A DNA stretch of 64,000 nt from Polytrichum commune (lineage: Eukaryota > Streptophyta > Polytrichopsida > Polytrichales > Polytrichaceae), in contig OX485806.1 of the NCBI GenBank assembly GCA_950295325.1, positions 43,088,001 to 43,152,000 of the forward strand, read 5' to 3'. The first letter of the stretch is position 1. Each line of letters opens with the position of its first letter. The position numbers and the translations under genes are program-made. Below the pieces are notes generated by a model. It made no database searches. It worked only from the letters and a program-made list of their open reading frames with translations, and was not told where the DNA came from. Below, piece after piece: positions 32,501 to 58,524 of the stretch.

Positions 32501-32577
32501 TGCGGGGGTACCATCCTACATGAGGAAACATCAGAAGCATCCCCTGTAGGAGGTCTATAACCAAGGTGGGCCAACAT
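29503..32577 (-). CDS. hAT-family transposase with DUF659 and C-terminal dimerisation domain
   Basis: The ORF has 1,024 codons and is uninterrupted from Met at 32577. A DUF659-type hAT catalytic core spans about residues 140-300. It includes CCDGWDNMQN with the first acidic residue D190, CTDNAP with D251, and the C-x2-H motif CVAHCLDLL at 275-278. The hAT dimerisation region lies before residue 620, with CSASACECNWSMYSYVHNKS. The following 400 residues are unusual for the family: a very acidic Asp/Asn-rich stretch, then a Ser/Arg-rich tail. hAT transposases cut and paste DNA with 8-bp target duplications, as this element shows. A BED zinc finger upstream is cut off by a TAG at 32632-32634 (see separate entry), so translation from 32577 would lack a full DNA-binding finger. 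It is the presumed mobiliser of the whole element. Confidence 0.88.
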   Translation of the reverse strand: MLAHLGYRPPTGDASDVSSCRMVPPHIRVLFEHCGGIVPLHVGIVNEDSPVRDIVPLEPIIADSVISETEPLLMSQPTQQYDDVIYGTPPRELRQLNITKGFNVSTKQLLDRAWAMAFYEANIPFNIVRHPAFVNAVRETARHRMPAYTPPSYNAIRTKLLIDQKVELDRQVKEKLRNSVEKYGVTICCDGWDNMQNRPLLNVLQCGTKGDIFLGTIDTTGNHKDHVYVAAQIQPFVEKVGRHNVVQICTDNAPVMASAARDLIQANPNLYFQGCVAHCLDLLLEDWGKEEWVKKLVKKARHICVFIKNHHASQAIFRRLSPNLSLRLPVETCFATNFIMIDRLLQVCNALERMVVDENWPTLLRDLKRRSATAYMKGVAVRRFICSDGFWNTCKNFLYMVIPVVKVLRVFDGKAPAMGLAWKVMHDLQTHIRGFNKSPFRLSPELAANAMLTFQNRWRLMLNDLHWAGAMLNPFLRGWAPLHEDENSRTILNRVLRRLTPDGDTYVQILHQYQDFLENRGPFADSTDPNVHAAPLHEWWDAMGGGAKALQTIARRILAQVCSASACECNWSMYSYVHNKSRNRLKHCRAEDLIYIYTNSRLIRHERGPRHAQWYELNEVHSDNDLDEEDDVEDDVDPNDRTGNDDDNNVDDIDFDLDDLDFDNRDFDDDDGNDSDGNLGVFDFDEADVPHHNDVMHDDHEGPIGRPHFDTVHTGQGFRSDHNVAMGAPENVGIEVGSLQPHSDSLSFGGGDNVLPANEPTHVQHDPLPAIVHSKSMDAPLISNHRIEVLTSNVAERPTTRFRALQRSASTSTVQVHAQRQHRPLTRSIANTSRLGVSRADAVGATLVALHNVSRNIAIEAPRRQSLRRHVVQNIPSANTSASVSLSQSQSNGRGGLEVGGGSTVGDAIIDGSRDEVHSSRGRSGGRQRTTTCVKRTRKRYQGRSLPFTTEDYNEDEGRPHLDENGIQDAEGSRSTKKLIISQRDRELHLRSGTPQTDDDFSTDESEEDPRCVEANDPTVRIRT

Positions 32578-39971: not shown

Positions 39972-41768
39972 TTACATCTCCACGGTTACAAAATTGGTAT
40001 GATTCAAAATTGATGCAAAAGAAACTAAAAAATTATATTTTGCAGTGTCACGGAAGCACATTGTTGGGCTAATCATGTTGTAGGGAGGCGACTTCAACAT
40101 GTTCACTACGTGTGTGATGGTTGACCTTTCCAATGGATTGGTCTTCGTCAATTCATCCAATGCTACCTCAAACCGCATCTTCAAGCCATTTGGATCACGG
40201 TTTAGCTGAAACAAGGGGGAAGTCGAATCTTTCTGATAAATCTTCTTTGCCAAAGCACCCACTGAGAAGGACTCCGAGATATATGTGTGCCTATGTTTCC
40301 GAGCCATCCTCATTGGAGAGGTGGATGTTCCATGTTGTCCTCGTACATGGAATAATTCAGGACCAGCACAGTTGTATTTTGCTTTGTGTTTGTTCATCTC
40401 ATCCACTGAATCTTTTCCATAGTTAGAGGGTGCATCTTCATCTCCCTAGGATGCCATGCCCCAATCACACACACCAATGAAAACCGTGTTATCCCGGTCT
40501 TGTAGGAAATGCAGCATGACATTGTTGGGATTAAGGTCATTGTGCAACACGTCATGCTTGTGCACGACATCCACAATGCACATTAGAGCCCATGCCAAAT
40601 AAGCTCGATGCCTTCGATATACAACCAACCGTTTCCGTGCTTCAAAGTCTGGCCCTGGCGTTTGAAGGATTGTGCTCTCGTGGACATCCGGAACTTGGTA
40701 GTCATAGGCCCTCATGTGCTTCAAAGAGCCTCCATTCCACCACATTGAGTAGGATTCGTATGTTTTCGGGTGCAAGTATTGTAGCTTGATTACCCCAGGA
40801 TGATCTACTGGGCATGCCAATGCTTCAACTGAACGCTCCTTCCGATTCTCCAAACTATTCATGGTCTTCCCAACCCACTCTATCCAGCTAGGGATGGATG
40901 ATGCTCCATGAATTGTGACCCTCCGCACCACTCCGAAGGTCCCTTGGAAGATTTCCTTATCCAAGGCTTTGATCTCCGCATTTCTAGGCAACCATATGAC
41001 ACCATGTCGGCCCTGAGTGGCAATGTTGTCTGCCATTTGTCTGTCAATAAACACGGGGAGGTTGCAGGCGGATGTTCCTTTTGCTATTATTACGCCTCTT
41101 TTCCAATTCTCTAGCTTATCGTACAGTTCAGACTTCATGCCACTACTACTTCCCTCGCCAGGATGCAAAGCATCATATGCCATTGTTGGATTGTAGACTG
41201 CTTCCGTGGCTTGTTGTTCAATCCACACATCCCAATCGTCCGTGCCCCTAGCTTCTTCAAACTCCGATCCAGCTGTGCCTTCCGTGAGAAGAAGCATCAA
41301 CTCGTTCTTCACCAACTCTAAACCCTTTGTACCATTATTGAGGTATTGTTTTTCCAAAAATACCATGCTATGGTTTCTAAACCATTCCAAAACCAATGTC
41401 CTACAATGGTTTCGAACCTCATCGCTCCGTTTATCACGTTTGCCTCTATTTTTCCTTCTCTTTGATTGCGAACCTAATGCCGTGGACCCCTCATCCATCC
41501 CTTCCGAATCTGTTGCGTGTTTCAATCCCCGTCGTTCATCACCTTCCGAAGACCGATGTACATCACGTGCAGGGCTAGTTGGGCTTGATGTCCCTCGGGT
41601 CGGAGATCGAGGTGTCACGTGCTCCCCACGAGTCGGTGCATGTATACCAGTGGAATTGCCTGAGCTTGGTCCCCTTCCTAATCTCCCTCTATATTCATTA
41701 TTTCCCCGACTGCCACGTGTTCCATGGCTTCCCCGTGATTGGTTGCCTCCAGAATGACCAACAGCCAA
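39972..41768 (-). pseudogene. Protein-kinase-like gene of the giant hAT, interrupted by one TAG
   Basis: A single frame of 598 codons runs from Met at 41768 to the stop at 39972, broken only by TAG at 40446-40448. The N-terminal 120 residues are Gly/Arg/Ser-rich and basic. The kinase domain starts near residue 272. It has a Gly loop QGTFGVV (275-281), candidate VAIK lysine K301 (WVGKTM), catalytic loop HNDLNPNNV (D411) and metal-binding DWG at 435-437 in place of DFG. After the stop, GPELF stands in for APE, SESFSVGALAKKIY for helix F, and a basic LERST segment for helix I. The key catalytic residues are present, so the ancestral protein probably was an active Ser/Thr or Tyr kinase. The stop falls in the activation segment. 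A TATA box lies 385 bases upstream. Confidence 0.82.
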
Positions 41769-43699: not shown

Positions 43700-46508
43700 T
43701 GTCTCTTTATGCCCTGTATTCCTTACACCGACTGCATGCCGTACGTGTCGGAAAGCTCTCACCGTTTAGTATCTCCAATTGCAATGAATTGTTTGAGAAC
43801 GCCTCACGAACAAAGTATGGTCCCAACCAAACTGCATCAAACTTACCTGGAAACTCAAGCTTCCATGCATCTTGAATCATCATCATCATACCTGGCTTGA
43901 GTGCCCTCTTCTTGTGTTGTTTGTCGAAGGTGATCTTCCTTCGCCTTTGGATGGCCTCGATGTGTTGAGCTACCATTCTCTTCCTTTCATCGAGCTCCTC
44001 TAAGGTTGTTAGCCTATTCTTCAATGATTGACTATCCGTGAGACGCGAACTTACCGCAACTCGTAATGACTCTACCTCGAATTCAATGGGTAGAGTTGCT
44101 TCCAACCCATACACTAAAAAAATGGAGTGGACTGTGTGGTGACTTTGAAGGTTGTCCGATAAGCCCACAATGCCGATGTTAACTTGACACCCCAATCCCT
44201 CTTCGAATCGTGGATTGTCTTGCGCATGATACTCACCAATGTCTCGTTAACACGCTCCGTTTGACCGTTGGTCTGCGGATGATAAGGAGTTGTTTTTCTA
44301 TGGTCTATTTTAAACATGTCTGTCAACTCTTGAAACATCTCGTTCAAGAAGTGGATGCCCTTATTACTAACTAGAATCTTGGGGCACCCAAACCTTGAGA
44401 TGATGTTTTCATACATGAAGGTGGCGGCATTGGCGGCTGTGTTCGTCTTCACAACTTTATCCTCTGCTCACTTAGTCAGGTACTCGGTTGCCACTACGAT
44501 GTAAGCCATGCCCTTCGAAGAATGGGGGTGAACCTCGCCAACATAATCGATCCCCCATTTGTCAAAGGGAACTAGAGGTAAGGACACATGAAGATGCATC
44601 TCTATGCGGAGGTCATTCCTCGCATACCTCTGACAAGCATCGCATTTCCTAACATATTTCTTAGCATCCTTGAACAAATCCGGCTAGAAGTAACCTGCTC
44701 TGAGTACCTTGTGTCCAGTGAGCAATCTTGAGAAATGCCCACCACATGCACTATCATGGCATGCAGCCAATATGGAAGGCGCTTCAATCTCAGACACACA
44801 ACGCCTCAGGATTCCATCCATTCCTCTCCTGAACAGTCTATGCCCTATCACTATTTAGTGCCGACTATTAACTCTGATTTTTTTTCTCTCTTTCCTCGTC
44901 CGATCTCCAGTTAACTGTTGGGTTGTGAGAAACTCTACGATGCCTGAGTACCAATCCGCTTTAGCTGTCACCAAAAAGAGGTTGTCATCCCTCAAACTGT
45001 CATCCACTGGACTAGATCCCACCTCCTCGGACAACCTTGATAAATGGTCGGCTTGCAAGTGCATACGCCCGGGTTTATACTCCACAATATAGTTGAACTC
45101 CTCCATTAATAGGACCCATCTAGCCAACCTCCCGCTCAACCCTGCCTTGTTGACTAAGAACTTGATTGCCATGTGATCGACAAAGAAAACCACAAGATTA
45201 CACATAAGGTAATGGCGAAATTTCTTGACTGAGAAGACCATGGCAGAGCATTCCCTCTCAGTGATGGAATAATTTCTCTCTGCTGGTGTTGATTGTCGGC
45301 TTGCATAAGCCACATGTTGATCCTTGCCCTTGTCCCCCGTTGATTGACATAATGCACTACCTACAGCTACCGCGTTAGCATCACAAAAAATATGAAAGGG
45401 TTTTCCCCAATCTGGTGGCCTTAACACCGGGTAGGTGCTAAGCTTTGACCTCAACTCCTCAAATGCCCTTTGGCATGCCTCTGTCCACTCGAACTTACAA
45501 TCATTCTTGAGTAGTTGCGTGATAGGCACTGCGATTTTTGCATAATCCGGAATCAACTATCTATACCAACCTACATGTTCTAACAACTTGGCTATGCCCT
45601 TGGCATTGGTTGGCGTGGCCAACTCATCTATGACTGCTATCTTCTCGGGATCCGGTTCCTTGCCTTTCTCACTTACCACATAGCCTAACACACGGGTAGA
45701 TCACTCCATTATCAAGTTGAACACCACGTGCGACCAAAAAAAATCTTCTTTTGGTAAGTTGTACCACCAAAATGGGTCAAAATTTTATCAATTTTTTTTC
45801 ATGAGTAGATATACACAGTACCTATGATATAGTTAAAAGTGGTAACTAAATTTGATGATTTGTTTTTTTCATAAAACATACCATTTCTAACTAGAATGAC
45901 AGAGAATTGAACTAAAAAATTTACTCAAAAAAATAAAGATGACTAAAAATTTCAAAAAAGTATACAAAAGATACTATCAATGGTTATGTATATGTAGAAA
46001 AAATATCATAAATTTTAAAATTATATATGGCATGTAATATAGGGGTAGCAAACTTTGTCCGCACGTGGTATCAACTTGACAATGAAGTGACCTCCCCGTG
46101 GCCTAACAACACGCCTTTCTGAACTCCTAAGAATGTTTTGTCAGGATTAAAAGCCAACTGCATTTGTCTGCATCTAATCAAAGCCTCTCTCACACATCCT
46201 AAATGTTGACTAGAATTCGACTGAGTGCTAAAGTCATCAATGAAGACTGTCATGGATTTGTACAACAAGTCGGTGAAGATGTACATGACCAGCCTTTGAA
46301 ACGTGGTTGGAGCGTTACATAATCCAAATGGCATGACCACCCACACAAACATGCCCCAAGGAGTGGTAAAGGCTGTTTTGTGAACATCTTGTAATGCTAT
46401 GGCGATTTGGTTATATCCCGCATAACCATCCATGAAAGTATAGCGAGCATGCCCCCCTACCTCCTCTAAAACCTCTATTTTTAACCATACCATGTCCTTT
46501 GCCAACTA
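43700..46508 (-). pseudogene. Old Ty3/gypsy pol (RT - RNase H - integrase), broken
   Basis: The minus-strand order is right to left. RT (46505-46101) has the TPWGMFVWVVMPFGLCNAP block and FIDD in place of YVDD. The RT thumb and RNase H follow (45690-44855), with FHIFCDANAVAVGSALCQ, ERECSAMVFSVKKFRHYL and HLQADHLSRL. Next come the integrase zinc region (CDACQRYA near 44630), the integrase core with WGIDYVGEV and VSNKGIHF (the second catalytic Asp replaced by Asn), and HPQTNGQTERVNETL, then the C-terminal part to 43707. Stops lie near 44855, 44690 and 44468, and the frame shifts near 44130. A MITE splits the RT. The RT N-terminus, protease and gag are missing, so the element is truncated at about 46510. 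Confidence 0.85.
45691..46100. mobile_element. MITE inserted in the gypsy reverse transcriptase
   Basis: The 410-bp non-coding element has inverted repeats about 40 bases long: CACGGGTAGATCACTCCATT on the left against CACGGGGAGGTCACTTCATT (reverse complement) on the right, continuing through TCAAGTTGA and CCACGTGCG. Perfect 8-bp duplications GCCTAACA flank it (45683-45690 and 46101-46108). Its interior is AT-rich. The 8-bp duplication suggests a hAT-mobilised MITE. Removing it restores the RT reading order. Confidence 0.9.
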
Positions 46509-47150: not shown

Positions 47151-47562
47151 AGCCCAATCTAGGTGCCCACATGTGTTTTTAAGCTTTGCAACTGTCAAAC
47201 CTTAGATTCAAAATTCTTATTAATTATTCAAAAGATAAAAAGAGTTGAAGGTTTTGTATTTGAGTTGGTTTGCGTTTAAGAGACCCAAGCAAGTATATTT
47301 TGAGTTGGAAATTAGAAGGACCAGGTTAAAGATTAATTCTTTGATTGGGTAAAGGCTTAGGGTGAGGATGTTAGGATTTGACGAGGCAAGGCCTCGGTTA
47401 GGACTAGGGTGCGTTAATTGTTTGTTTTAGGCAGTAGCAGGATCGAAAGTAGGAGAGGGCCAGGTTGCTAAAGGGAGGGCCGCTCCTCCTCTGAGGAGAT
47501 GACGACCGGGATTTCCGAATCGACCAGGGAGGACCAAAGGCGAGGGAGAGCTCCCTCTTGGC
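47151..47562 (+). repeat. 5' part of an older LTR that received the methyltransferase retrotransposon
   Basis: The start TGTGAGCCCAATCTAGGTGC resembles the LTR start at 43648 and the start at 20942. Its continuation appears to be 57473-58524, whose end carries the family signature. Together these give about 1.46 kb. I assign them by family resemblance, not by a clean target duplication. Confidence 0.5.
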
Positions 47563-47995
47563 TGTCACGTGAGGTGACATCGGGGGCTAAGTTACGTCAA
47601 TTTAGGAGTAAATGGACTCCATTAAGAGTCCATGTGTGTTGGGATGAGTAACGGACTCCATTGGGAGTCCTAGTTAGTTGTTCATCCACTCCATGGATGA
47701 ACTCCACATAGGATTGGGGTTGTATGGAGAGGAAGGCCTCTTGACTTGCCATTGTTGTCAAGTCAAGTCTTGTGAGTGTGTTTTGAGAGAGAGAGAGAGC
47801 TTGTTGTTGCTTTCTCATGGCTATGGTGTAGTAGATTATGAGTAAAGCCTTTGCATTCTTTCTCCACCACTTGCACTCTTGGATTCTCCCTTTGTGGAGT
47901 GAGAGATAGCTTGACTTTTGTGTGTGAATTTTAGAGTTTCTTAAGCTTTGTAAGGAGACATTTTAGTTTCTTAAGCTTGGAGAGAGAAACCCTCA
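47563..47995 (+). repeat. 5' LTR of the methyltransferase retrotransposon
   Basis: It starts TGTCACGTGAGGTGACATCG and ends ...GAGAAACCCTCA (TG...CA). It matches 56932-57364 with two substitutions. Two hairpins of the type GGACTCC ... GAGTCC lie in the first 110 bases. A (GA)n run is near the middle. Confidence 0.95.
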
Positions 47996-49258
47996 TACTT
48001 GACAACAATTGTTCAAATTTTTCATTTTTGGTTGTATTTCTGAGCCAGAATGGCCCAGTAATGAGAGCAAATGAGTGATACAAGTGTTTGAAAGCTTAGT
48101 TCGTCATTTCTTGCAATCCTCAAGAAGATTTTGAGAGAAATCTTCCCATTTTTCTTTTGTTGTTTCTTGTATTTTCTTCAATTGTTGATGTTTGAATCTT
48201 GAGATTCCATTTAGTTTCGAGATTCTCAAGTCACATTTTCTTGCTTGCAAATTGTTAAGCAAAGTTTAATTTAAATACAAACATAAACCAAATTCAAAAT
48301 CCGATTTAGTTTTAATTTTGGTGGAGCTCCGGACGGATCCGGAGCTCACCGGACCCTCTTGGAGCTCTTGGAGCTCCTGGAGCTCCGGTTCTGAACTCTA
48401 ACGGGCGGCGCAAACCGGGCCCCACGGGCGGGCGGGCTCGGCCAAGCCCAGGCTGGCTCCCCCCTTTACAGGGGCACCTTACCTTGCAGGTAAGGCCATT
48501 TTTTTTTTATTAGTTTAAGTTAATTAAGTTAATTAGATTAAGTTAATTAAGTTAATTATTTTTTAAATTTTTTAAATTTTTTAAATAAACCGGACTTTTT
48601 ATTTTTTTATTTTTAAAATTTTTACTTTCACTTTCAAATTTGGCATTTCATTGTCACAAACTTTGAGGCTCAAATTTGGGGGCATACTAGCTCCGATTGA
48701 AGTGAAATTTGAGCCTATTTTGTGTGAAATTTGCCAAGGAATCCAATGGTGTAATTGGATTTTTGATTGGAAGTCGAAATCATTGCTGAAATTGCTAATT
48801 TCAACGCTGATTTTTGTTTTTGGGAGCAAATTAACTCCGATTGGAGTGAAATTTGAGCCTAATTTGTGTGAAATTTGCCAAGGAATCCAATGGTGTAATT
48901 GGATTTTTGATTGGAAGTCAAAATCATTGCTGAAATTGCTAATTTCAACGCTGATTTTTGTTTTTGGGAGCAAATTAACTCCGATTGGAGTGAAATTTGA
49001 GCCTAATTTGTGTGAAATCTTCCTAGGAGTCCATTGGTGCACTTAGTTTGTTGATTGGAGTTCATAATCACCTTGGAAATGAGCATTTTCAACGCTGATT
49101 TTTAATTTTAATTACCAATCTCAAACCTTTGCACAATTTTGGAATTCTGGGGGCATAAGCATTTGGCATTTGGCAAGGTATTGCCATTTAGATAGTCCGC
49201 AACAGGTGCAGGTTGCCATTACCTTGTAGATAGTTGCAGGTACTCAAGGGATTATTTT
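47996..49258 (+). other. Untranslated leader of the retrotransposon
   Basis: The leader of about 1.26 kb contains a cluster of five GAGCTC palindromes (48322-48383), a GC-rich block, A/T-rich spacers and the 144-bp tandem repeats. No tRNA-complementary primer-binding site of a known plant type is visible next to the LTR. Packaging and dimerisation signals would be expected here, but I cannot identify them. Confidence 0.6.
48660..49090. repeat. 144-bp tandem repeat, three copies, in the leader
   Basis: Units beginning GGGAGCAAATTAACTCCGAT recur at 48678 (diverged), 48822 and 48966, exactly 144 bases apart. The second and third are almost identical. As 144 is a multiple of three, both strands stay open through the array (131 and 147 codons), which explains the two overlapping ORFs without requiring a protein. 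Confidence 0.9.
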
Positions 49259-49984
49259 ATGGTGCAAACTAGGAGTCGATATTATCGATCTCCATCACCA
49301 GATTACTTGGAGGACGTGGACACCACAAATCTTGAGCCAGAGGTAGATACCAACGAGGCTTTTGAGCCTATTCCGGCGTTGGATACTACTAGTAGGCTTC
49401 GGATTTGGAGTGTCGGCACGTTCGACGAAATGGAGGACGATCGTCACAATTCAGTGCGTGATCGGTTTTCAGGTCGAGCTGGGGGCATTTCCTTGCCCGA
49501 TTGGAAACTCCGGTTTCGTACCTGGATTAAGGAGAAACGCCAAAGGTCTTCCAATTTCAATGATTGGTATGCCTTTGAACTTCTGCCTCAACATTTGGAG
49601 TATGAGGCACTCCAAACTTATGAACGCTGGACAGAGGGTCATCAACGACAACTTCGGGAGGTGGAGCAGTATTGGGAGGCTCGGGTTGAGCTCATTTCAG
49701 CCCTTAAGGATGGGGCGGTTGCTACCTTAGCTCCACCCACCTTAAAGGAGGAGGAATCGCCGGCGGAGTCTAAGGACACGGAACTGGCACTTGGGCCAAT
49801 GGTGGCTAGCAGTAGCACGGCAACCCTTTCACGGGTGGCACGTGCTACACAGGCAGCATTGACGGCTGTTGGTCCACCACCTCCGTTTAACCCCCTTACT
49901 GAATTTGTCGCACATTTGGAAGTGGAATATGGTGGATTTCGGCGAGACCAGATGCAGCGCATCCAGGATTTCCGCCGAGAGTAG
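49259..49984 (+). CDS. gag: Gag N-terminal part (methyltransferase retrotransposon)
   Basis: The ORF has 241 codons from the first ATG after the leader. It opens with a basic Arg/Ser stretch (MVQTRSRYYRSPSPDY) followed by an acidic region. The central block LPDWKLRFRTWIKEKRQRSS ... FELLPQHLEYEALQTYERW has the Trp-rich helical look of plant gypsy Gag matrix/capsid. It ends at TAG (49982-49984) followed by GAT GAT. The downstream ORF is in the same frame and begins with the remaining Gag capsid sequence only 18 bases on. The context does not match known readthrough motifs, so the stop is most simply a nonsense mutation that splits Gag. Gag forms the virus-like particle in the cytoplasm. Confidence 0.8.
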   Translation: MVQTRSRYYRSPSPDYLEDVDTTNLEPEVDTNEAFEPIPALDTTSRLRIWSVGTFDEMEDDRHNSVRDRFSGRAGGISLPDWKLRFRTWIKEKRQRSSNFNDWYAFELLPQHLEYEALQTYERWTEGHQRQLREVEQYWEARVELISALKDGAVATLAPPTLKEEESPAESKDTELALGPMVASSSTATLSRVARATQAALTAVGPPPPFNPLTEFVAHLEVEYGGFRRDQMQRIQDFRRE

Positions 49985-50002
49985 GATGATACTCCACGGA
50001 CC

Positions 50003-53000
50003 ATGTATACGCGACTCGCGCGATTTGCTGCGGAGTCGGGAGGTGTTTTTGCTGAGAGTCAGCTTGTTAAAATCTTTTTGTCTAAGATTGACAAGCGGCT
50101 ACTTGAGTTGGCATCACCTCGGATTATCCTCGACTACGAGGGCCGAGCTACGCTTGCACAAGCGTTTGCCGTGGTTGAGAAATGTGATCGGGCTCTTTGC
50201 CAACATGATGCCACGGATATGGTATCTTGGATGACAGAGAGTCCGAAACCAAGAAGAATTGTCACAGCTACTAGCAGTTTAGCTGAGACTCAACCCGTCA
50301 AGGAGCAAAAGATTTTGCATTGTTGGGGTTGTGGAGAAGCTGGTCATTCGAAGAATGATCCCAATTGTCCTAAGAAGAAGAAAACTCAGCCTTTGGGAAA
50401 ATTAAAACAAAAGATGGAACCAGTAAGGGCAGGGGACAATTCTAAGAAGAGACAATTGAAATGTAGCCATTGTGGTGGCACTAATCACGATGTGGATCAT
50501 TGTTACCTACTTCATCCTGAGATGCGGCCTGCCAGTTCTGTCACTGGAAAGTCTCCAAGGGAGCAGAGTCTTGAGGCTAAGGTGGCAGAGCTTGAGCAAA
50601 AGCTCAAATCTTCTGCATCTTTTGCTCAAATTTCTGAGCCGCATGTGGGTGGTGGCACCTCGGGTTCGGACATGTATATGTTTGGAGCAGCTGGAGAGGT
50701 GGTGGTGGCGGCTTTTATTCGCTCACAAACATTGGCAGATGCGGTGGCTTCCACGAGTGGTGGTAGCAACGAGGTGCTACATCCTCGCCATGCCGGACCA
50801 GCTGATCAAATTGGTCAAGCACGTTTACCTCTTTCATTTGGATTGGTAGACACCACTGTTGTTGGGGCTAAAAACCCTGTACCTTTGAGAGATGGGGATT
50901 CCATCTCGAAGGATGTTACGCAGGCATTGGCATATAAAATTCTCCATATGCTAATTTTCTCGGGTTCGGAGTTTATGGCTTCGGATTTCAAGCCTGATGC
51001 AGTTTTTCATTTAGTTGGGAGAATGTTAGAAGGTAAGGCGGATTTGCCATCCCTTCAAGTATCCCAAGCTGTGGTTGACGTACCTGTGGCTGAGGAGGTG
51101 GAGGACTTAGCCAATTTGCGAGCGAGTCTTGCGGATGCGGCGATCATTACTTTTGGTAAGCAAACTGATATTCCTCCAGCATCAATTTCAGCAGTGGATA
51201 CGTCGTTTGCGAATTATGCGTCCGGAGCGGCATATCTTGCAGACATTTCTGCAAGGCCTACTCGCGAACGGCATAATTTGCAACCAGGAGTTGTACGGCT
51301 GATAAACGACAAATCTTTGTTTGTCGTTTCACGTACGGATATGCCCACTATCCGTGCTACACCACTGAGAGTTATGATGGATTCCGGTGCTCAACCGGTT
51401 ATGATTGGCAAAGGACTTGCTGACAGTCTTGGATTGACGCCAGCAAGCTTGGATCCTTGTCCATTCACTATTGTGACTTCAGTAGGGGGCACTGAACGTG
51501 CAACAGGTTACACCAAGGCACCTCTACGTTTGATTTTTCATGTGGGGGCAGGGCCTACTTACACTCATTTGTCAATGAAGTGTGTTGTTATTAATGCTAC
51601 CAACTATGATATACTTGTTGGTCAGCAAGCTCTTTACCCACTTGGCTTTGGTTTGGATAATTGGACGGAAGAGGCATGGATTAGACCGGGATGGTCCACT
51701 GGAGATGGCAGGAAGGTATTTATTCCCGTCACATTTGCAGCCACTGCTATGACTGTGGTTGCGGAGGCAATGTTTGGTTGCAGCGGTTTAGTTGCAGATT
51801 TGCCTTGTGCTCCAGTTTTATTGGAGGAAACAATGGACTACACTTGTAATGCGGCAGAACAACAATTTTTACCATCTTTTCAAATTCCTGCTCGACATTT
51901 CAAGGATCCACCTCCACCATGGCGAACTCCTAAGGAGTTATCCGACCATTGTCGACACATTGTAGCGGATTTGGAGCTTGGAGAGGCACCCCCAACTTCA
52001 TCCTCATTTTCTTTTGCTCAACCCATTCGTTGGCAACCATCACCTGAAGGTATTGTCCTTGTGGAGATCTTTGGAGGCATTGGCACAGGTTTGGCGGCAG
52101 TGTTGGAAGCTGGAATTACAGTTTGGCGATATATTCATGTGGACAATGGGTATGCAGCTAACAGAGCCGTCCGACACCACATCCAACAATTGTTGTTAAG
52201 ATACCCCGCACAATTGTCAGCCTCTGCCATTCATGGATGTTGTAGTCAACTTCCTCAAGATGTCACTATGATTAGTGATGAGGATTTGAGAAGGTTGGGC
52301 CACGTGGATTTGATTATTGCAGGATGGCCTTGTCAAGGCCATTCGCGGGCAGGAACTGGCCAGGGATTGGATGATCCTAGGTCTAGTTTGTTTGCGGATT
52401 TGATGCGATTGACGCAATGGTGGTTTACCCACCAATCAACTCCGCCAGGGTACATTTTCGAAAATGTACCATTATTGGGTGATACCCGGCACAAAGTGGT
52501 GAAGGATGGTGAGTACATTAACCAAATTCTGGGTACTCCAACATTTCTGGATGCTGCATCTTTGGGATCCTTTGCTCATCGGCCTCGTTGGTTTTGGACC
52601 AACTTGGTATCACCTCGGGTGCTTTCGGCGGCGATTGCCCGCATTCCCCGCCTTATGGATCGCAAGGTGGATGACATTTTAAATGATCATCGTGTTTCCT
52701 TGGCGGTTACCAAGGATGACACCGTGCCATTTGCATTAATTAACAAGGTGGGAATTCCGAGAGGTGCACTACCTACTTTTGTGACATATCCACAGTCTTT
52801 TGCATTTCGATCTCGTGGACCTGGCATGGTTTGGGATTCCAAATTCCAAACTTATGAGGAGCCTACGGCAGATGAGCGGGAACGCGCCATGGGTTTTCTT
52901 ACAGGTACCACGGCTGCTCACGGGCTTCAGGAAGGTCAGAGACGTTTCCTATTGGGGCAAGCTATGGATCTTAATAGCATTGTGTGGATAATTGGAATTT

Positions 53001-53356
53001 GTCTTGTTGCTCAACAACGTATGAATGACCAATTGCTTACTCTGAGGGCAGAAAACAATGGTCAGGGGGCAATGGAGCCGCAATCCAAGGATCACATTGA
53101 GGTCAATGACACCGAGGGATTATTTCCTTTGAAACTTCATGTTGCGGAAGAGCTTCGAGCCCAACGTATTTTTTCGGCTTTGGCCCAAGAGTTTGGGAAG
53201 TTGGAGGCCCATAAAATGTTTCCACTTCTATTTCTTGGTAATACTTCATATGTGGGTAGCTATTTAGCTACACAAACTGATTGTAGTGGAGAGGATACGC
53301 ATTTGGATTCAAGTGCAGATGATGGGGACAAAGGTGTTGCCCTCTCCACGGACTAG
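50003..53356 (+). CDS. Gag C-terminus - retropepsin - C5-DNA methyltransferase fusion
   Basis: 1,117 codons. Residues 1-100 are Gag capsid-like (FLSKIDKRLLELASPRIILD). Two CCHC-type zinc knuckles follow at 107-122 (C-x2-C-x4-H-x6-C, unusual spacing) and 154-167 (canonical), then a short coiled coil near 190. Retropepsin has its catalytic DSG at 460-462. Residues about 680-1010 form a cytosine-C5 methyltransferase. Motif I is EIFGGIGTG (690-694 core), motif IV GWPCQGHS (Cys777 nucleophile), motif VI FENV (820-822) and motif VIII RPRWFWTNL (860-868). A motif X-like LLGQAMDLNSIVWI lies near 980. The collinear I-to-X order excludes a DRM-type rearrangement, and RPRWFWTNL most resembles DNMT3-type enzymes. 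The enzyme transfers methyl from SAM to cytosine in DNA. The stop at 53354 is UAG-CAA-UCA. Confidence 0.93.
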   Translation: MYTRLARFAAESGGVFAESQLVKIFLSKIDKRLLELASPRIILDYEGRATLAQAFAVVEKCDRALCQHDATDMVSWMTESPKPRRIVTATSSLAETQPVKEQKILHCWGCGEAGHSKNDPNCPKKKKTQPLGKLKQKMEPVRAGDNSKKRQLKCSHCGGTNHDVDHCYLLHPEMRPASSVTGKSPREQSLEAKVAELEQKLKSSASFAQISEPHVGGGTSGSDMYMFGAAGEVVVAAFIRSQTLADAVASTSGGSNEVLHPRHAGPADQIGQARLPLSFGLVDTTVVGAKNPVPLRDGDSISKDVTQALAYKILHMLIFSGSEFMASDFKPDAVFHLVGRMLEGKADLPSLQVSQAVVDVPVAEEVEDLANLRASLADAAIITFGKQTDIPPASISAVDTSFANYASGAAYLADISARPTRERHNLQPGVVRLINDKSLFVVSRTDMPTIRATPLRVMMDSGAQPVMIGKGLADSLGLTPASLDPCPFTIVTSVGGTERATGYTKAPLRLIFHVGAGPTYTHLSMKCVVINATNYDILVGQQALYPLGFGLDNWTEEAWIRPGWSTGDGRKVFIPVTFAATAMTVVAEAMFGCSGLVADLPCAPVLLEETMDYTCNAAEQQFLPSFQIPARHFKDPPPPWRTPKELSDHCRHIVADLELGEAPPTSSSFSFAQPIRWQPSPEGIVLVEIFGGIGTGLAAVLEAGITVWRYIHVDNGYAANRAVRHHIQQLLLRYPAQLSASAIHGCCSQLPQDVTMISDEDLRRLGHVDLIIAGWPCQGHSRAGTGQGLDDPRSSLFADLMRLTQWWFTHQSTPPGYIFENVPLLGDTRHKVVKDGEYINQILGTPTFLDAASLGSFAHRPRWFWTNLVSPRVLSAAIARIPRLMDRKVDDILNDHRVSLAVTKDDTVPFALINKVGIPRGALPTFVTYPQSFAFRSRGPGMVWDSKFQTYEEPTADERERAMGFLTGTTAAHGLQEGQRRFLLGQAMDLNSIVWIIGICLVAQQRMNDQLLTLRAENNGQGAMEPQSKDHIEVNDTEGLFPLKLHVAEELRAQRIFSALAQEFGKLEAHKMFPLLFLGNTSYVGSYLATQTDCSGEDTHLDSSADDGDKGVALSTD

Positions 53357-53362
53357 CAATCA
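53354..53362 (+). promoter_or_regulatory. Probable translational readthrough signal (UAG-CAA-UCA)
   Basis: The stop codon separating the Gag-PR-methyltransferase ORF from the RT ORF is UAG followed by CAAUCA. This fits UAG-CAR-YYA, the type I leaky context known from tobamoviruses. The next ORF is in the same frame and there is no ATG close to its start. Readthrough would give a minor Gag-Pol product, with the methyltransferase on the abundant upstream protein. Confidence 0.7.
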
Positions 53363-55927
53363 CAGGCTGTGCTGGCACCAATTGGCAATCCTTCTATGAA
53401 GAAGGAAACCACGGACTTTGACGATTGGCCAATTGAAGTGGGGCCAAAGCTTACTGGTGCCGAAACACGAAAGGTACGGGCATTTATTCGCTCTTACCGT
53501 AATTGTTTTGCCTTTAGTCTTCATGATCTTGAAGGATATAAAGGTAAATTTGTTCGTATTCAACTCGAGGACGACCACCCTATTTTCAGACGGCCGTACA
53601 GACTTAGTACCTCTGAAAGGTTGGGTGTTCAAACTCGATGTCAAGAGTTATTGGCAGCGGAATTGATTGAACTCTCCAATGGAGAGTATGCTTGTGCCAC
53701 GGTTATGCCGTCAAAGAAGGATATCTTTGGCAACTGGACGGAAAAACGGATGTGTGGTGATTATCGTCCAGTCAACCGCAAGACTAAGTCGGATCGATAT
53801 CCAATGCCGATGCCGGAGGAGTTGTTTGATGCACTGGGATTTTCTAGAATCTTCAGCACTCTGGATTTGAGGTCTGGTTATCATCAATTACCTTTGTTGT
53901 TGGGTGATCGGGTGAAAACCGCATTTTGGGGAATTGATAAAGATGGCAAGGATCAACTTTATCATTGGAAATTTTTGCCATTTGGTCTCAAGAATGCACC
54001 AGCTAAATTTCAGCGGGTGATGGACCAATTATTGGCTGGTTTTCCGTTTGCTAGATGTTACATTGATGATGTTATCATCTTTAGTAATAGTCTACAGGAT
54101 CATGTGAGACATTTGCAAGCAGTATTTGAACGACTTCAACGGTGGGGACTCCGTTTACATAATGGAAAATGTAAGTTTTTCCATGATCAATTGCCCTATT
54201 TAGGCCACATGATTGTTCCTGGCGGTCTTGGTGTGCAACAGGCGAAGGTGGATGCTTTGCACAAAATTCCCGCACCTAGTGATGTACCACGGCTTCGTGC
54301 ATTTCTAGGATTGGCAAATTATTATAGAAGGTTTGTCAAAAACTTTAGTTTGATTGCCAAACCTCTTACCATTCTCACAGGGAAAGACCAACCATGGATT
54401 TGGAGTCGGGAACAACAACAGGCATTTGATACATTGAAGCAGAGGCTCGGTTCAGCGCCAGTGCTTCGACGCCCGGATGTGTCTAGAGCTTTTCAATTGC
54501 ACACGGATTGGAGTGCAGTGGGATTGGGAGCGGTATTGACACAGAAAGATGAAGAGGGAAAGGAATATGTGGTGGCTTATGCATCTAGAAGCAATAATAG
54601 TGCTGAATCTAATTATTCTTCTTATGAAGGCGAGGCCTTGGCGGCCATTTGGGCCATTGCACATTTTCGACCTTATTTGTATGGGCAAAAGTTTACTTTG
54701 GTGACTGATCATCAGCCTTTAAAATGGCTTATGGAATCATATAAGCTCACCGGGAAACTTGCTAGGTGGGCATTGTTACTTCAGGAATATGATTTTGAAG
54801 TTGTTCACCGAGCAGGAATTGCCAACTTGGATGCAGACGGATTGTCTCGCAATCCAAGTCCTTCAGATGAGGATTTAACTGGAGCCAGGTGGCATGGAGA
54901 TTGTGATCGTGAGGCAGTGCCGGGTTGGCATGCTGCCACATATCTTACAATGATGTCGGGATTGGCTGCTGAGATCCTTGTAGAAGAACATGATGAGGAG
55001 GTTGATAAATCTCTCGTTGTTAGTGATGTGTGGGAAGACCACGCGGTCTTGCACAAACTTCAATACGGGATATTTCCTCTTGGACTATCTGCTATGGAGC
55101 GAGATAGAATTAGTCACCGGATAACAAGGTTTCGTTGGGCAAACAACTTGTTATTTCGTGTGTGGCCGAACGGAACGAGGCGCATCGTTCCAAGGCCAGA
55201 TCAAAGAGTTTATTTGGTACGGCAAGTGCACGAGGAGCTTGGATATTTTGGAGTGCGAAGGACGCACTCTATGTTGCGCAACCAATATTGGTGGATTGGT
55301 ATGTATCAACATGTTGTCACTTATGTTTCTCGGTGTGAAGTATGTGACCGGGTCAGGTCAAGTTTTAATACTTTGTCACCTCAACTTCAGCCTTTACCTA
55401 TTATGGGCTTGGGATATCGTTGGTCTTTGGATTTTGCCGGACCGCTTACTATTACTCCACATGGTTCCAAGTATGTGCTTGTGATGGTGGAGCATTTTAG
55501 TAAGTGGATTGAACTCGTGGCTCTTCCCCAAAATTCCTCAGAATTGGCGGCTATGGCATTTCTTGATCGAGTTTTGGCACGGTTTGGAGCACCTGCAGAA
55601 GTGTTGACGGATCAAGGGAGAGAATTCCTTGGATCTTTCGAGGCTTTGTGTACCAAGGCTTTGATTGATCATCGGACAACTTCCAGAGATCACCCTGAGG
55701 CAGATGGCTTAGCTGAACGAGTTGTTCAGACGGTTAAGCGCGGTTTGCGGAAGTATGGATTGCTTCATGGCAACCATCGCGATTGGGACTTGATGTTACC
55801 ATGGATAGCAATGGGTTATCGTTTCAGCAGGCAAGCATCTTTGGCATCCTATAGTCCTTACCAACTCTTGTATGGACGGGAACCGATTTTACCTAACTCG
55901 GTGCGAGAGAAATTGGCTCCGTGGTAA
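53357..55927 (+). CDS. pol: Reverse transcriptase - RNase H - integrase (pol)
   Basis: Residue numbers count from the GTG at 53369; the frame is open from directly after the UAG, and readthrough is the likely expression route. RT lies at about 60-290, with LDLRSGYHQ, FLPFGLKNAPAKFQ and the catalytic YIDD at 231-234. RNase H lies at about 375-490, with HTDWSAVG (D380), SSYEGEALAAIWA and VTDHQPLKW. Integrase has an HHCC zinc region (HEELGYFGVRRTH ... CEVCDRV) and a catalytic triad D688 (WSLDFAGP), D748 (LTDQGREF) and E783 (GLAERVV) with D-D(34)-E spacing. All catalytic residues are present. The frame ends at TAA 55925-55927, but integrase homology continues in the frame starting at 55921, so a 1-nt change has split the C-terminus. 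The enzymes copy element RNA to cDNA and insert it in the genome. Confidence 0.95.
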   Translation, partial: QSQAVLAPIGNPSMKKETTDFDDWPIEVGPKLTGAETRKVRAFIRSYRNCFAFSLHDLEGYKGKFVRIQLEDDHPIFRRPYRLSTSERLGVQTRCQELLAAELIELSNGEYACATVMPSKKDIFGNWTEKRMCGDYRPVNRKTKSDRYPMPMPEELFDALGFSRIFSTLDLRSGYHQLPLLLGDRVKTAFWGIDKDGKDQLYHWKFLPFGLKNAPAKFQRVMDQLLAGFPFARCYIDDVIIFSNSLQDHVRHLQAVFERLQRWGLRLHNGKCKFFHDQLPYLGHMIVPGGLGVQQAKVDALHKIPAPSDVPRLRAFLGLANYYRRFVKNFSLIAKPLTILTGKDQPWIWSREQQQAFDTLKQRLGSAPVLRRPDVSRAFQLHTDWSAVGLGAVLTQKDEEGKEYVVAYASRSNNSAESNYSSYEGEALAAIWAIAHFRPYLYGQKFTLVTDHQPLKWLMESYKLTGKLARWALLLQEYDFEVVHRAGIANLDADGLSRNPSPSDEDLTGARWHGDCDREAVPGWHAATYLTMMSGLAAEILVEEHDEEVDKSLVVSDVWEDHAVLHKLQYGIFPLGLSAMERDRISHRITRFRWANNLLFRVWPNGTRRIVPRPDQRVYLVRQVHEELGYFGVRRTHSMLRNQYWWIGMYQHVVTYVSRCEVCDRVRSSFNTLSPQLQPLPIMGLGYRWSLDFAGPLTITPHGSKYVLVMVEHFSKWIELVALPQNSSELAAMAFLDRVLARFGAPAEVLTDQGREFLGSFEALCTKALIDHRTTSRDHPEADGLAERVVQTVKRGLRKYGLLHGNHRDWDLMLPWIAMGYRFSRQASLASYSPYQLLYGREPILPNSVREKLAPW

Positions 55928-56499
55928 ACTTGGATGATCCAGATGTTTGGGCTCAATGTCTTCATGACCGAGCAACGTTCTTCCAAAAGGCCATGCCTAT
56001 GGCTATGGAGAACTTAAATATTGCTCAACATCGTGATACATTACGGTATGCCCGGATCCGCAGTGGAGCTTATCGACCTCAGGTTCGTAGATTTTCCAAG
56101 GGGGATTATGTTTACTTGCAACGGGAGGCGCCTACGACATTGGATGTCAAGGCTGGGCGCACGATTTTGCGGGTAAAAGATGTCTTGCCAAGTGGTATAT
56201 TATTGCTTGAAGGCAAGGATGGACGGGAATGTCGTGAGCATTCAAAGAATTGTGCTCCATGTCACCTTCCCATCGACGGCTCTGTGCATCCCGAGTTGGC
56301 GGTTGTACCACAGGGTCTACCTTGTTATGTTTGTGGAGAGAAGAAAGGAGCTGCAACAATGTTATTGTGCGACCAATGTCAACGTGGATGGCACATGGCA
56401 TGTTTGACACCTCCCCTTTTTACTCTTCCTTCTGGCAATTGGGTTTGTCCTCGTTGTCGGAAAACCTCTCATCCCGTGGCCGTTAATGGTCATGATTGA
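55921..56499 (+). CDS. Integrase C-terminal domain with terminal PHD finger
   Basis: 192 codons overlap the end of pol by 7 bases in another frame. Residues 1-110 are the usual gypsy integrase tail (QAL/ATFFQKAMP-type helix, then FSKGDYVYLQREAP and VKDVLPSGILLLEG, a GPF/Y-like beta region). Residues 135-179 form a PHD finger in C4HC3 order: CYVC, LLCDQC, GWHMAC, then WVCPRC. PHD fingers commonly bind the N-terminal tail of histone H3. Chromoviruses carry a chromodomain at this place, so here the PHD finger is the probable chromatin-targeting module. No slippery heptamer is obvious at the overlap, so I regard the frame change as a small indel in this copy. Programmed frameshifting is the alternative. 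Confidence 0.88.
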   Translation: MVNLDDPDVWAQCLHDRATFFQKAMPMAMENLNIAQHRDTLRYARIRSGAYRPQVRRFSKGDYVYLQREAPTTLDVKAGRTILRVKDVLPSGILLLEGKDGRECREHSKNCAPCHLPIDGSVHPELAVVPQGLPCYVCGEKKGAATMLLCDQCQRGWHMACLTPPLFTLPSGNWVCPRCRKTSHPVAVNGHD

Positions 56500-56812
56500 G
56501 AATTTTGTGGATGTTTACCACATGTTTTAGTGGTGAAGTTGTTATTTAGTTGGTTGGAAATTTTATGGAATTAAGACCACATTGAAAGAGTTATCCAAGA
56601 ATTCAACATTAATTGTTGAAGGCGATTAAGGATGGGGCTCACACGCACCCAGCCTACAGTTTTTGGATTACTTTGTCAATCACGAGTTTAATTCCTTCGA
56701 TTACTACTACCCAATTAAATATGTAAAGATGTAGCAACAACTTCATCATATTCAACAACTCTACCGATGAATGTGTTTGTTCCTAGCCGATTGGAGGGGC
56801 TCCTTATCTGCT

Positions 56813-56820
56813 AGTGGGGG
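56813..56820 (+). other. Polypurine tract
   Basis: AGTGGGGG lies 111 bases upstream of the 3' LTR and directly before the 107-bp repeat. It is the only good purine run near the 3' end. Its distance from the LTR is odd, because priming normally occurs at the LTR border. Confidence 0.5.
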
Positions 56821-56822
56821 CA

Positions 56823-56929
56823 CTTGAAGAGGTGGTTGTTTAGCATTTTAGTTTGCTATTTTATTTTGCTAATTGATGTTGACAACGACACTCAATATAT
56901 TGTGTTTAACGATCTTAGTTTACACGACA
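56823..56929 (+). repeat. 107-bp repeat on the left of the 3' LTR
   Basis: It starts CTTGAAGAGGTGGTTGTTTA and ends TTTACACGACA. It is repeated at 57366-57472, on the other side of the LTR, with two substitutions. Confidence 0.93.
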
Positions 56930-56931
56930 GC

Positions 56932-57364
56932 TGTCACGTGAGGTGACATCGGGGGCTAAGTTACGTCAATTTAAGAGTAAATGGACTCCATTAAGAGTCC
57001 ATGTGTGTTGGGATGAGTAACGGACTCCATTGGGAGTCCTAGTTAGTTGTTCATCCACTCCATGGATGAACTCCACATAGGATTGGGGTTGTATGGAGAG
57101 GAAGGCCTCTTGACTTGCCATTGTTGTCAAGTCAAGTCTTGTGAGTGTGTTTTGAGAGAGAGAGAGAGCTTGTTGTTGCTTTCTCATGGCTATGGTGTAG
57201 TAGATTATGAGTAAAGCCTTTGCATTCTTTCTCCACCACTTGCACTCTTGGATTCTCCCTTTGTGGAGTGAGAGATAGCTTGACTCTTGTGTGTGAATTT
57301 TAGAGTTTCTTAAGCTTTGTAAGGAGACATTTTAGTTTCTTAAGCTTGGAGAGAGAAACCCTCA
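56932..57364 (+). repeat. 3' LTR of the methyltransferase retrotransposon
   Basis: It matches the 5' LTR at 47563-47995 over the full 433 bases with two substitutions (AGGAG/AAGAG near the start, CTTTTG/CTCTTG near the end). Confidence 0.95.
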
Positions 57365-57365
57365 T

Positions 57366-57472
57366 CTTGAAGAGGTGGTTGTTTAGCATTTTAGTTTGCT
57401 ATTTTATTTTGCTAATTGATGTTGACAACGACACTCGATATGTTGTGTTTAACGATCTTAGTTTACACGACA
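57366..57472 (+). repeat. 107-bp repeat on the right of the 3' LTR
   Basis: This is the second copy of 56823-56929. It ends in ACACGACA, so an alternative LTR running from 56932 to 57472 would also be TG...CA, but the 5' LTR does not contain it. Confidence 0.93.
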
Positions 57473-58524
57473 CGGCGCTCTCTCTGTTCGGAAGGGGGCT
57501 AACATGCACTGCGGCGGAGGAGGGTTTAAGGGGATGCACTGCCGCATAGCCAGAGGGGGCAGATTCGAAGGATTGGCCGAAGACAAAGTCATATCGTTGG
57601 CTCTTGAGGGGGTGGTGGGCACCCAGACAATGCACCGAGGTGCTTGGGCCATGTGTGGCCAATTGAAGGTGGGAATTTGTGAATGCCATCCTCCGAAGGC
57701 ATCTGCATCTGCCTCCCAGGGTAAATGAATGTATTCCATCATTGCAGAGTGGCGGAGGGGGAGAATGTGGTTGCACAACGGTATTTGTTGATCCAGGTGA
57801 AATTCAAGCGGGTGAGAGGTGTAGGATCCTGTGGGATGCGGTGCCCAGCTAAAGGATTGTAAAAGAAGCGAGAATTGGGTACTTCGAGCACCAGGGAACA
57901 CAATGCGGCTGGAGCATTCAAAATGCGGTCCACAGTGCCAACACTGTTTGGTAGAATTCAGTCGGATATGGTCTGAGAACTCATTCCAGGGAGGAAGGGT
58001 TTAAGAACAGGAGAAGGGAACTACGACCAAGGGCCGGAAAGAACCAGGGGCTGCCACGTGGGTGGGCCAGCAAGGGGACTCCAGGGGCTATCACGGCTTC
58101 AAAGAGAGTGACAGCAACAGAGGCCAGCGCGAAGGTGCTGACCGGTTAATAAAACCGGGAGGAGCTGACGGGTTCCTGGATGGACAGGTGCTTTGGGCCG
58201 AGAGGCACTGGGACGACTGGTTTCCGTTGGGGACCAGGGGGTTGTTTAAGCCTGACATAAAATCAATTCTTCTAAGTAGGTTGATTAGGGGTGATTTAGG
58301 TGGGTAGGCTTTGAGTGTGATGTGTATGAATTAAGGGATGCTTGTGTTCCTAAACATTGGCTACCAACATTTTAATAAAGTGACCCATGAAATGTTCATC
58401 TTAGTGTAAGGATGGGATGTGAGCCTAAGGGTTAAGAGAAATCGAGTAATCACATGTGAGCTTGAAGCTTCCCCCTAGACTAGGACGCTTAAGGGGTGGG
58501 AGTTTAGGCCTCACTTTACGCTCT
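57473..58524 (+). repeat. 3' part of the older LTR containing the methyltransferase element
   Basis: The segment ends with ACTAGGACGCTTAAGGGGTG ... GTTTAGGCCTCAC, the family signature also seen at 22234 and (minus) 24985. GGCCAGCAAGGGGA and a GACAGCAACAGAGG stretch match the central part of the split minus-strand LTR. Short ORFs in it are not supported as genes. Confidence 0.55.

Follow-up and report, generated by a model that had tools for sequence, protein, structure and literature searches.

A DNMT3-type methyltransferase domain on the Gag side of a leaky-type stop in a Ty3/gypsy-type retrotransposon family of the moss Polytrichum commune

Organization of the element

The window analyzed here, a 64,000-nt stretch of contig OX485806.1 of Polytrichum commune, was found to contain a Ty3/gypsy-type element that spans positions 47563-57472 and carries a C5 DNA methyltransferase domain (Table 1). 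The order of the protease (PR), reverse transcriptase (RT), RNase H and DDE integrase is that of Ty3/gypsy (Metaviridae-like) elements. The terminal repeats are split as A...B-A-B, with A at the left and B-A-B at the right, in rows of both subfamilies of the family described below. The B pair was observed in 14 and the A pair in 11 of the 21 rows compared (the window copy and 20 fetched copies), and the other rows reach the 10-kb limit or have no match. Identical full LTRs at both ends were thus not found, and the arrangement in both subfamilies rules out ordinary LTRs. Split direct repeats of this kind are DIRS-like, but a DIRS element was ruled out by the DDE integrase and the 4-bp target duplications; in the Pfam search, no phage-integrase (tyrosine recombinase) family was found at E up to 0.1, and rve was found. 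The family has TG...CA ends, with a perfect 4-bp target duplication in four of the five rows having both ends. Such duplications in sister copies set the start of the element proper at 47563, and the window copy itself is flanked by TGGC (47559-47562) and CGGC (57473-57476), an imperfect duplication that agrees at three of four bases.

Table 1. Features of the methyltransferase-carrying element in window coordinates
Feature	Position	Strand	Remarks
Left terminal repeat A1	47561..48002	+	99.3% identical to A2; element proper opens with TGTC at 47563
Three 144-nt tandem repeats	48675..49106	.	Leader, between A1 and gag
gag, N-terminal part	49259..49981	+	Premature stop 49982-49984 in window copy
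Remaining gag, two CCHC zinc knuckles (CWGCGEAGH.., CSHCGGTNH..)	50003..51349	+	Profile matches to nucleocapsid chains
Retropepsin-like protease (DSGAQ)	51350..51646	+	Pfam Asp_protease_2 E 3.8e-4, under Pfam cut-off; domain scan residues 450-548
C5 DNA methyltransferase domain, DNMT3 type	52037..53038	+	ORF residues 679-1012; profile, motif and fold evidence
In-frame stop, leaky-type context TAG CAA TCA (UAG-CAR-YYA)	53354..53362	+	Separates DNMT from RT
Possible RNA stem 3' of stop	53373..53462	+	Outer arms 53373-53380 / 53455-53462
Reverse transcriptase	53423..54262	+	Pfam RVT_1 E 2.8e-30
RNase H	54383..54802	+	Pfam RT_RNaseH E 2.4e-38
DDE integrase core and zinc-binding part	55163..55762	+	Pfam rve E 8.7e-14, Integrase_H2C2 E 8.7e-15
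Integrase C-terminus and PHD finger	55921..56499	+	PHD ~56323-56457, Pfam PHD E 1.9e-11; frame differs from integrase in window copy
Repeat B1	56823..56929	+	98% identical to B2
Repeat A2	56930..57370	+	B1-A2 junction is the palindrome GACA-GC-TGTC
Repeat B2	57366..57472	+	Element end ...GACA at 57472

The window copy is defective. Its premature stop in gag is absent from P0003, P0005, P0006, P0013 and P0017, in which reading continues past this point, and the break in frame before the PHD finger is likewise read as a probable lesion of this copy. A programmed frameshift at this site was rejected for the family, because the integrase and the PHD finger are kept in one frame in L047, a locus on a foreign contig, and in several sister copies. 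The anatomy and the family status described here are almost certainly correct, judging from the sequences compared.

The stop between the methyltransferase and RT, together with the next six bases, is an exact match to the UAG-CAR-YYA context of tobacco mosaic virus, in which CAR YYA is described as the essential 3' context of the leaky UAG in two papers (PMC2754532, PMC3542737). Its setting between Gag-PR-DNMT and RT of a retrotransposon differs from that of the virus and is known here from sequence. The motif occurs in 19 of the 21 rows and in L047. A genome search that left its nine positions free gave 141 sites, of which 100 were listed, and 98 of the listed sites have it; it is retained in both subfamilies although the flanking bases differ. 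Within the window, only 5 of 6839 stop triplets have this context, the DNMT-RT stop included. In a consensus fold of 12 rows, the stem 3' of the stop has eight outer pairs, of which one is changed on both sides and two are broken in one row, and single-sequence folds were more stable than shuffles in all three cases. It is very probable that RT-integrase would be made only by readthrough of this stop.

The methyltransferase domain and its family

A sequence-only reading had claimed a complete-looking C5 DNA methyltransferase between protease and RT, with its motifs in normal order and in one polyprotein with Gag and protease. Profile and fold searches confirmed a complete domain, and the motifs follow in the order I, IV (PC), VI (ENV), VIII, IX and X. 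The placement in the Gag-protease polyprotein was also borne out and is conserved in the family. Profile searches against solved chains gave DNMT3A at E 5.7e-28, ahead of DRM (6.3e-16), the bacterial enzyme HhaI (8.6e-10), the tRNA C38 enzyme (1.5e-8) and DNMT2 (2.0e-6 and 2.6e-6), and none of the 57 rows within an E limit of 0.01 is a chain named DNMT1 or CMT. DNMT1 and CMT were also not among the 50 entries shown by VIA-align, an absence that proves no difference. In the NCBIfam search, the dcm superfamily was the sole match, under the cut-off. By profile and fold, the domain thus appears closest to animal DNMT3: the catalytic domain of DNMT3A/DNMT3B is the top match in both, although identity is ~25%, the element has PCQ where the animal enzymes have PCN, and, unlike them, the element domain is embedded in Gag. 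No PWWP or ADD families were found in the window element at E up to 0.1 in Pfam.

These matches also bear on whether the domain binds or methylates RNA, such as the packaged genomic RNA or the primer tRNA, as DNMT2 does with tRNA. The zinc knuckles that precede it in Gag belong to the nucleocapsid, whose partner is RNA, and this position favors the explanation; the authors of a 2018 study raised RNA methylation as a possibility for LINE-borne enzymes (PMC5890265). We nevertheless regard it as unlikely, given that the matches to DNMT2 and the tRNA C38 enzymes are far weaker than that to DNMT3.

The plant DRM de novo methyltransferases are DNMT3-related by profile, like the element domain, but their motifs are permuted (IX-X before I), whereas the order in the element is normal. 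In the same genome, the gene fragment L051, probably DRM-like by its motif order, is ~25% identical to the element domain. A recent retrocopy of this host gene, the only one compared, was therefore rejected on the basis of the low identity and the permuted motifs.

The family occupies at least 141 sites in the genome. All 20 fetched copies have the methyltransferase domain in this place, with the gag side before it and RT after it, and 18 of them have every part; L012 is without the integrase end and the PHD finger, and L019 without the protease part. No DNMT-free sister copies were established: among the matches listed, a DNMT match precedes RT by no more than 3.5 kb at a minimum of 114 of 138 RT places. 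We estimated dN/dS (Nei-Gojobori, ratio of means) from copies with the domain in one frame and pairs with dS above 0.01. For the methyltransferase, pairs within subfamily A gave 0.35 (n = 36) and pairs within subfamily B gave 0.27 (n = 15), compared with 0.32 and 0.22 for RT; the within-A values are noisy, as the required protease and RNase H domains gave 0.59 and 0.50. Between the subfamilies, the methyltransferase has dN 0.284 with saturated dS, and its identity (59-70%, depending on the segment) is lower than that of RT (79-88%), so the enzyme is less constrained than RT. By these estimates the domain is under purifying selection, and the alternative that it was a chance insertion in one copy failed. 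A functionless passenger carried along by family expansion is very improbable. Breaks in the domain are common, which would suit a passenger: it is full-length in one frame in 15 of the 21 rows, window included, and 4 of these 15 have an internal stop. Against this stand the dN/dS values well below 1 within both subfamilies, the catalytic Cys in 85 of 87 diverse sequences and the retention of the domain across the green algae, mosses and liverworts named below. As judged from these comparisons, the element belongs to a large, young Ty3/gypsy-type family in which a DNMT3-type enzyme is a fixed domain of the Gag-protease polyprotein.

Relatives and published counterparts

The nearest named relatives of the element are from bryophytes, and the domain is carried in relatives from named green algae, mosses (including peat mosses) and liverworts including Marchantia. 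In a FastTree analysis, 83 gypsy DNMTs from bryophytes, Closterium, Monoraphidium and other contigs formed one clade with two domain orders, relative to outside rows consisting only of one DNMT3A fragment, two DIRS-like and eight phage-like proteins. P0053 and P0054, which we take to be DIRS-like proteins, fell outside this clade. Distances of DNMT and RT covary, with Mantel r 0.94 for 16 proteins of the window domain order, 0.69 for 18 proteins of the other order and 0.83 for all 34 (each 0/2000 permutations). A search of genome_contigs gave four loci, L047 and three distant bacterial ones, and IMG/VR gave no close relatives with the window domain, with 18 distant loci matching the profile, which were left out of the other comparisons.

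The idea of a DNMT-carrying gypsy element is already in print. The retrotransposon-borne methyltransferases of a charophyte and dinoflagellates, to which the sequence-only reading had correctly pointed, are described by de Mendoza et al. 2018 (PMC5890265). According to that description, KnitGypsy-Dnmt3 of Klebsormidium nitens, an LTR Gypsy element, matches the element here in its non-rearranged Dnmt3-related C5 methyltransferase, Gypsy domains and DIRS-like split repeats, and its methyltransferase is under purifying selection (Ka/Ks under 0.2). Its enzyme was reported in the Pol polyprotein ORF, whereas that of the element here is on the Gag side of the leaky-type stop, and a PHD, present here on the integrase, is not mentioned in that paper's main text. 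No Klebsormidium-named rows were among the matches listed in our relative searches. In yeast, the KnitGypsy-Dnmt3 domain gave no detectable methylation, a result its authors deem inconclusive, and DNMT3 domains borne by dinoflagellate DIRS elements methylate CG de novo (PMC5890265). The dinoflagellate SymbioDIRS-Dnmt3 and SymbioLINE-Dnmt are also retrotransposons with C5 methyltransferases (PMC5890265), but are tyrosine-recombinase or LINE elements, unlike the element here with its DDE integrase. Orchid Ty3/Gypsy elements are reported to have likewise captured a nucleic-acid modification enzyme, recently and of a different type, an m6A RNA demethylase domain (PMC9289625).

According to a 2019 opinion paper (PMC6338049), land plants, tracheophytes for example, have no DNA-methylase transposons; the elements described here show that at least bryophytes do have them. 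The same paper already speculates that such a domain guards the element or host against other DNA, namely competing elements or DNA viruses, which we consider quite improbable here, since defense poorly explains the tie of the enzyme to the Gag reading frame.

In the literature searched, we did not find reports of a land-plant family with at least 141 genome sites, an enzyme encoded together with Gag ahead of a conserved UAG-CAR-YYA stop, a PHD finger on the integrase, A...B-A-B repeats combined with TG...CA ends and 4-bp duplications, or 83 gypsy DNMTs in one clade with two domain orders. The known range of DNMT-carrying retrotransposons, one alga and dinoflagellates until now, thus comes to include land plants, among them Marchantia, a model liverwort with easy genetics.

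Proposed function of the enzyme

DNA methylation is one of the main plant weapons against transposable elements, and the elements themselves appear to carry this DNA-methylating weapon. From the conserved motif, we infer that ribosomes would usually halt at UAG-CAR-YYA 3' of the methyltransferase and would occasionally read through into RT-RNase H-integrase-PHD, so that each particle would contain numerous methyltransferase units but few of RT-integrase. Because it is encoded with Gag, ahead of the leaky-type stop, the enzyme should be present in the particle in quantity, unlike a minor component of Pol. Most likely it would methylate the new cDNA in or near the particle, and the copy would already be marked when the integrase, aided by the PHD chromatin reader, inserts it. 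A marked copy may resemble host DNA, or may be silenced at once with less harm, which would keep both host and element alive. The combination of a DNMT3-type Gag-level enzyme, leaky-stop readthrough and cDNA marking before insertion is our best explanation as a whole and has about an even chance of being right; cDNA methylation as the selected function of the enzyme is plausible, though slightly short of even.

The PHD finger raises another explanation, in which the enzyme and the integrase PHD act on the chromatin of the host where the element inserts or close by, and not on cDNA, silencing the neighborhood or competitors. The readthrough product would join Gag-PR-DNMT and integrase-PHD in one polypeptide, which could bring writer and reader to the site at the same time, and Pfam PHD was listed in both domain orders (P0065 of the window order and many of the other). 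However, most of the enzyme would be made as part of the short Gag-side product, which has no integrase, and PHD was not listed for most relatives having the window order, nor in the Closterium rows or P0055-P0059. We judge action on host chromatin to be improbable, and keep cDNA marking as the preferred reading.

No CpG depletion was found as a footprint of self-methylation (CpG o/e 0.68 in the element vs 0.57 and 0.61 around it), and C-to-T singletons are elevated alike in CG, CHG and CHH. Together these fit ordinary host silencing, apparently with no special footprint of a self-encoded enzyme.

A broader scenario is possible but doubtful: an ancient green-lineage clade that would predate land plants and have persisted in mosses, liverworts and green algae, in which the DNMT3-type enzyme would be a bulk particle component accompanied by rare RT-integrase-PHD readthrough, with 5mC on the element's own cDNA, chromatin reading and copies that are 'born silenced', and with a second branch carrying the enzyme between RNase H and integrase. 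The enzyme's place ahead of the leaky-type stop and the PHD reader are concrete, testable parts, and the family is young and numerous enough for new copies to be watched.

Organization of the element and its family

The Ty3/gypsy-type element was found to consist, in order, of repeat A1, a leader containing three repeats of 144 nt, gag encoding two zinc knuckles, protease (PR), a DNMT3-type C5 methyltransferase domain (DNMT), a stop, reverse transcriptase (RT), RNase H (RH), a DDE integrase (IN), a PHD finger, and repeats B1, A2 and B2. Other Ty3 elements can have a chromodomain at the place of the PHD finger. The copy in the window is defective because of a premature gag stop and a frame change. 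Less damaged copies were present, as 19 of the 123 Pfam matches in the genome lay within open frames of at least 1300 aa.

Coordinates of the element, its lesions and neighboring features in the window
Feature	Position	Strand	Basis or content
Element	47563-57472	+	Sequence; TGTC start, GACA end
Premature gag stop	49982-49984		
DNMT	52037-53038		
Frame change	near 55920		
PHD finger	56323-56457	+	End of integrase
RT and RNase H fragments	44855-46505	-	Relic of a further Ty3-type element immediately upstream
Transposase-like ORF	29503-32577	-	1024 aa; DUF659, hAT dimerisation region
Transposase-like ORF	33841-35322	+	493 aa; zf-C17orf113, DUF4371
ORF	40446-41768	-	440 aa; weak similarity to protein kinases (E 7.8e-5, under the cut-off)

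Copies of DNMT and RT were sought throughout the genome, which comprises 407.8 Mb in 64 contigs, C4 being the contig that holds the window. The Pfam search for DNMT gave 123 scored matches among 353 candidates, and the protein search gave 120 (86-100% identity) among 582. The sequence-only reading had described a methyltransferase inside the gypsy polyprotein, and the count of copies speaks against a chance insertion: DNMT was placed between the gag side and RT in all 20 sister copies compared (10 kb each, the first 20 in the Pfam match list), a count uninformative on DNMT-free copies because the copies were picked by their DNMT. Every element part was present in 18 of them, while L012 was without the integrase end and PHD finger and L019 without the protease part. 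Among the matches listed, DNMT was upstream of 114 of the 138 scored RT places (1601 candidates). Judged by the median A1-A2 identity of 99.1% (11 rows with both found; pieces of 155-443 bases), many copies of the family are young.

Two subfamilies were apparent among the copies. In the 11 window-like ones DNMT is 90-97% identical to the window, except in one short L022 segment at 69%; the other 9 stand further off, at 59-70% for DNMT (segment by segment) and 79-88% for RT. Between subfamilies A and B, dN was 0.284 for DNMT and 0.090 for RT, with dS saturated. Among these copies, Gag and DNMT diverge far more between subfamilies than RT; recombination or faster Gag-side evolution is conceivable.

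Within subfamilies, dN/dS (Nei-Gojobori, ratio of means; copies with the domain in one frame, pairs with dS >0.01) was, for A and B respectively, 0.35 (36 pairs; median 0.44) and 0.27 (15 pairs; median 0.25) for DNMT, 0.32 and 0.22 for RT (28 pairs each), 0.29 and 0.15 for the integrase core, 0.59 and 0.41 for protease, 0.50 and 0.14 for RNase H, and 0.44 and 0.21 for PHD plus the integrase C-terminus, the pairs being non-independent and the ratios raised by post-insertion decay.

The stop between methyltransferase and reverse transcriptase

A single stop separates Gag-PR-DNMT from RT-integrase, both in one frame. The stop and next six bases were UAG-CAR-YYA in 19 of 21 rows (the window and its sister copies) from both subfamilies, with CAA or CAG, UCA or UUA, and varied flanking bases; in the other two the frame breaks near the stop site, and one of these, L016, retains the motif. 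A genome stop-site search with all nine motif positions free and at most two mismatches gave 141 sites, with 0 in the reversed control, and the motif fitted 98 of the 100 sites listed. L047, a related element on a contig outside the host genome, has UAG-CAA-UCA at the same place, followed by 1047 open codons. Window-wide, this type of context occurred at 5 of 6839 stop triplets, including that of the element. P0003, P0005, P0006, P0013 and P0017, relatives seen as proteins only, terminate at the same point, and no stop is there in other relatives with the same domain order (P0040, P0055-P0059, P0061, P0065).

Passages of PMC2754532 and PMC3542737 describe CARYYA 3' of UAG as the essential context for tobacco mosaic virus readthrough. 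The RNA 3' of the stop folded more stably than mononucleotide shuffles in 3 of 3 sequences tried, and an 8-pair outer stem was predicted from 12 aligned rows (22 in hand), with both-sided change at one pair and two pairs broken in L047; the predicted structure lends weak added support to a leaky stop. If the stop behaves as in viruses, DNMT would be made at the Gag level.

Relatives and origin of the methyltransferase domain

Three protein searches gave 52, 62 and 213 matches (120 of the 213 listed). Among the matches listed were the bryophytes Marchantia polymorpha, Calypogeia fissa, Sphagnum fallax and S. troendelagicum, which held the nearest named relatives, and green algae (three Closterium strains and Monoraphidium neglectum). 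P0107, a cytosine methyltransferase labelled Candidatus Obscuribacterales, is probably a misassigned plant retrotransposon on a misplaced contig, given its 76% identity to the window domain. L047 (CADCWO010000201.1, 1-9285; DNMT 69% identical; 127-base identical ends) lies in a MAG labelled Synechococcales; it is probably plant DNA binned with a cyanobacterial MAG, and its circle is probably an assembly effect of repeats.

The order PR-DNMT-RT-RH-IN was observed in the window, bryophytes and Closterium, and PR-RT-RH-DNMT-IN in Monoraphidium and many other relatives. The Pfam PHD was found in many second-order relatives and, among the first-order rows listed, only in P0065; the window family and L047 also have a PHD finger. 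In two DNMT trees, all 83 gypsy domains formed one clade (support 0.999 and 0.995), outside which fell two DIRS-like domains and eight phage-like enzymes; DNMT3A, included in the second tree, also fell outside. P0053 and P0054, which we take to be DIRS-like proteins, have a DNMT domain, as do dinoflagellate elements. The gypsy clade split into groups of 54 and 29 (supports 0.84 and 0.80; 0.91 and 0.75). In the group of 29, DNMT follows RNase H or immediately precedes integrase; DNMT preceded RT in 15 of the 54, most others comprising only the gag-PR-DNMT part, with the order partly visible. The RT tree (41 rows) grouped the second order weakly (0.60), with three first-order rows adjoining, and DNMT distances correlated with RT distances. 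From the DNMT clade, the RT tree and these distances, we hypothesize that a single capture and a single relocation would suffice for the gypsy DNMTs in the present data, with few cellular DNMTs in the tree. A 2018 study states independent capture for the Klebsormidium element (PMC5890265); this element may belong to the gypsy clade, which would bear on that statement.

Passages of PMC12344493 mention streptophyte retrotransposon DNMT3s in general terms. In titles, abstract starts and passages of the open-access papers listed, we found no description of a bryophyte gypsy element with DNMT, of a PHD finger on such integrases, or of UAG-CAR-YYA in such elements.

Repeats, integration and proposed function

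A1 (442 nt) matches A2 and B1 (107 nt) matches B2, giving the arrangement A...B-A-B; the B pair was recovered from 14 of the 21 rows and the A pair from 11, the remaining rows being truncated by the 10-kb limit or yielding no match. A perfect 4-bp duplication (TCTC, GTAA, ATGT, CTTG) flanks A1 and B2 in four of the five rows with both ends, and the window copy is flanked by TGGC and CGGC. In 14 of the 21 rows, and also in L047, the B1-A2 junction is GACAGCTGTC. It resembles a retained two-repeat circle junction, with TG...CA ends separated by two bases. No primer-binding site was identified in the element. A circle-like cDNA intermediate has been proposed for DIRS elements; here the cDNA may pass through a circle-like form, with the inner B-A as template, which would then be inserted by the DDE integrase, unlike in DIRS elements.

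In the likeliest reading, bulk Gag-DNMT inside the particle would methylate new cDNA, and the PHD finger on the integrase would read chromatin during insertion. Counting against cDNA methylation, the CpG content of the element showed no footprint of self-methylation, and the Klebsormidium domain, according to PMC5890265, had no activity in yeast, an inconclusive result, unlike the dinoflagellate DIRS DNMTs, which were active on CG. C-to-T singletons per site at CG, CHG and CHH were 0.18, 0.23 and 0.15 in subfamily A (11 rows, L017 excluded) and 0.24, 0.21 and 0.16 in subfamily B (8 rows, L019 excluded), compared with A/T transitions of 0.04 and 0.07. They were thus up in all contexts, as ordinary plant silencing would give, which counts against the self-methylation reading.
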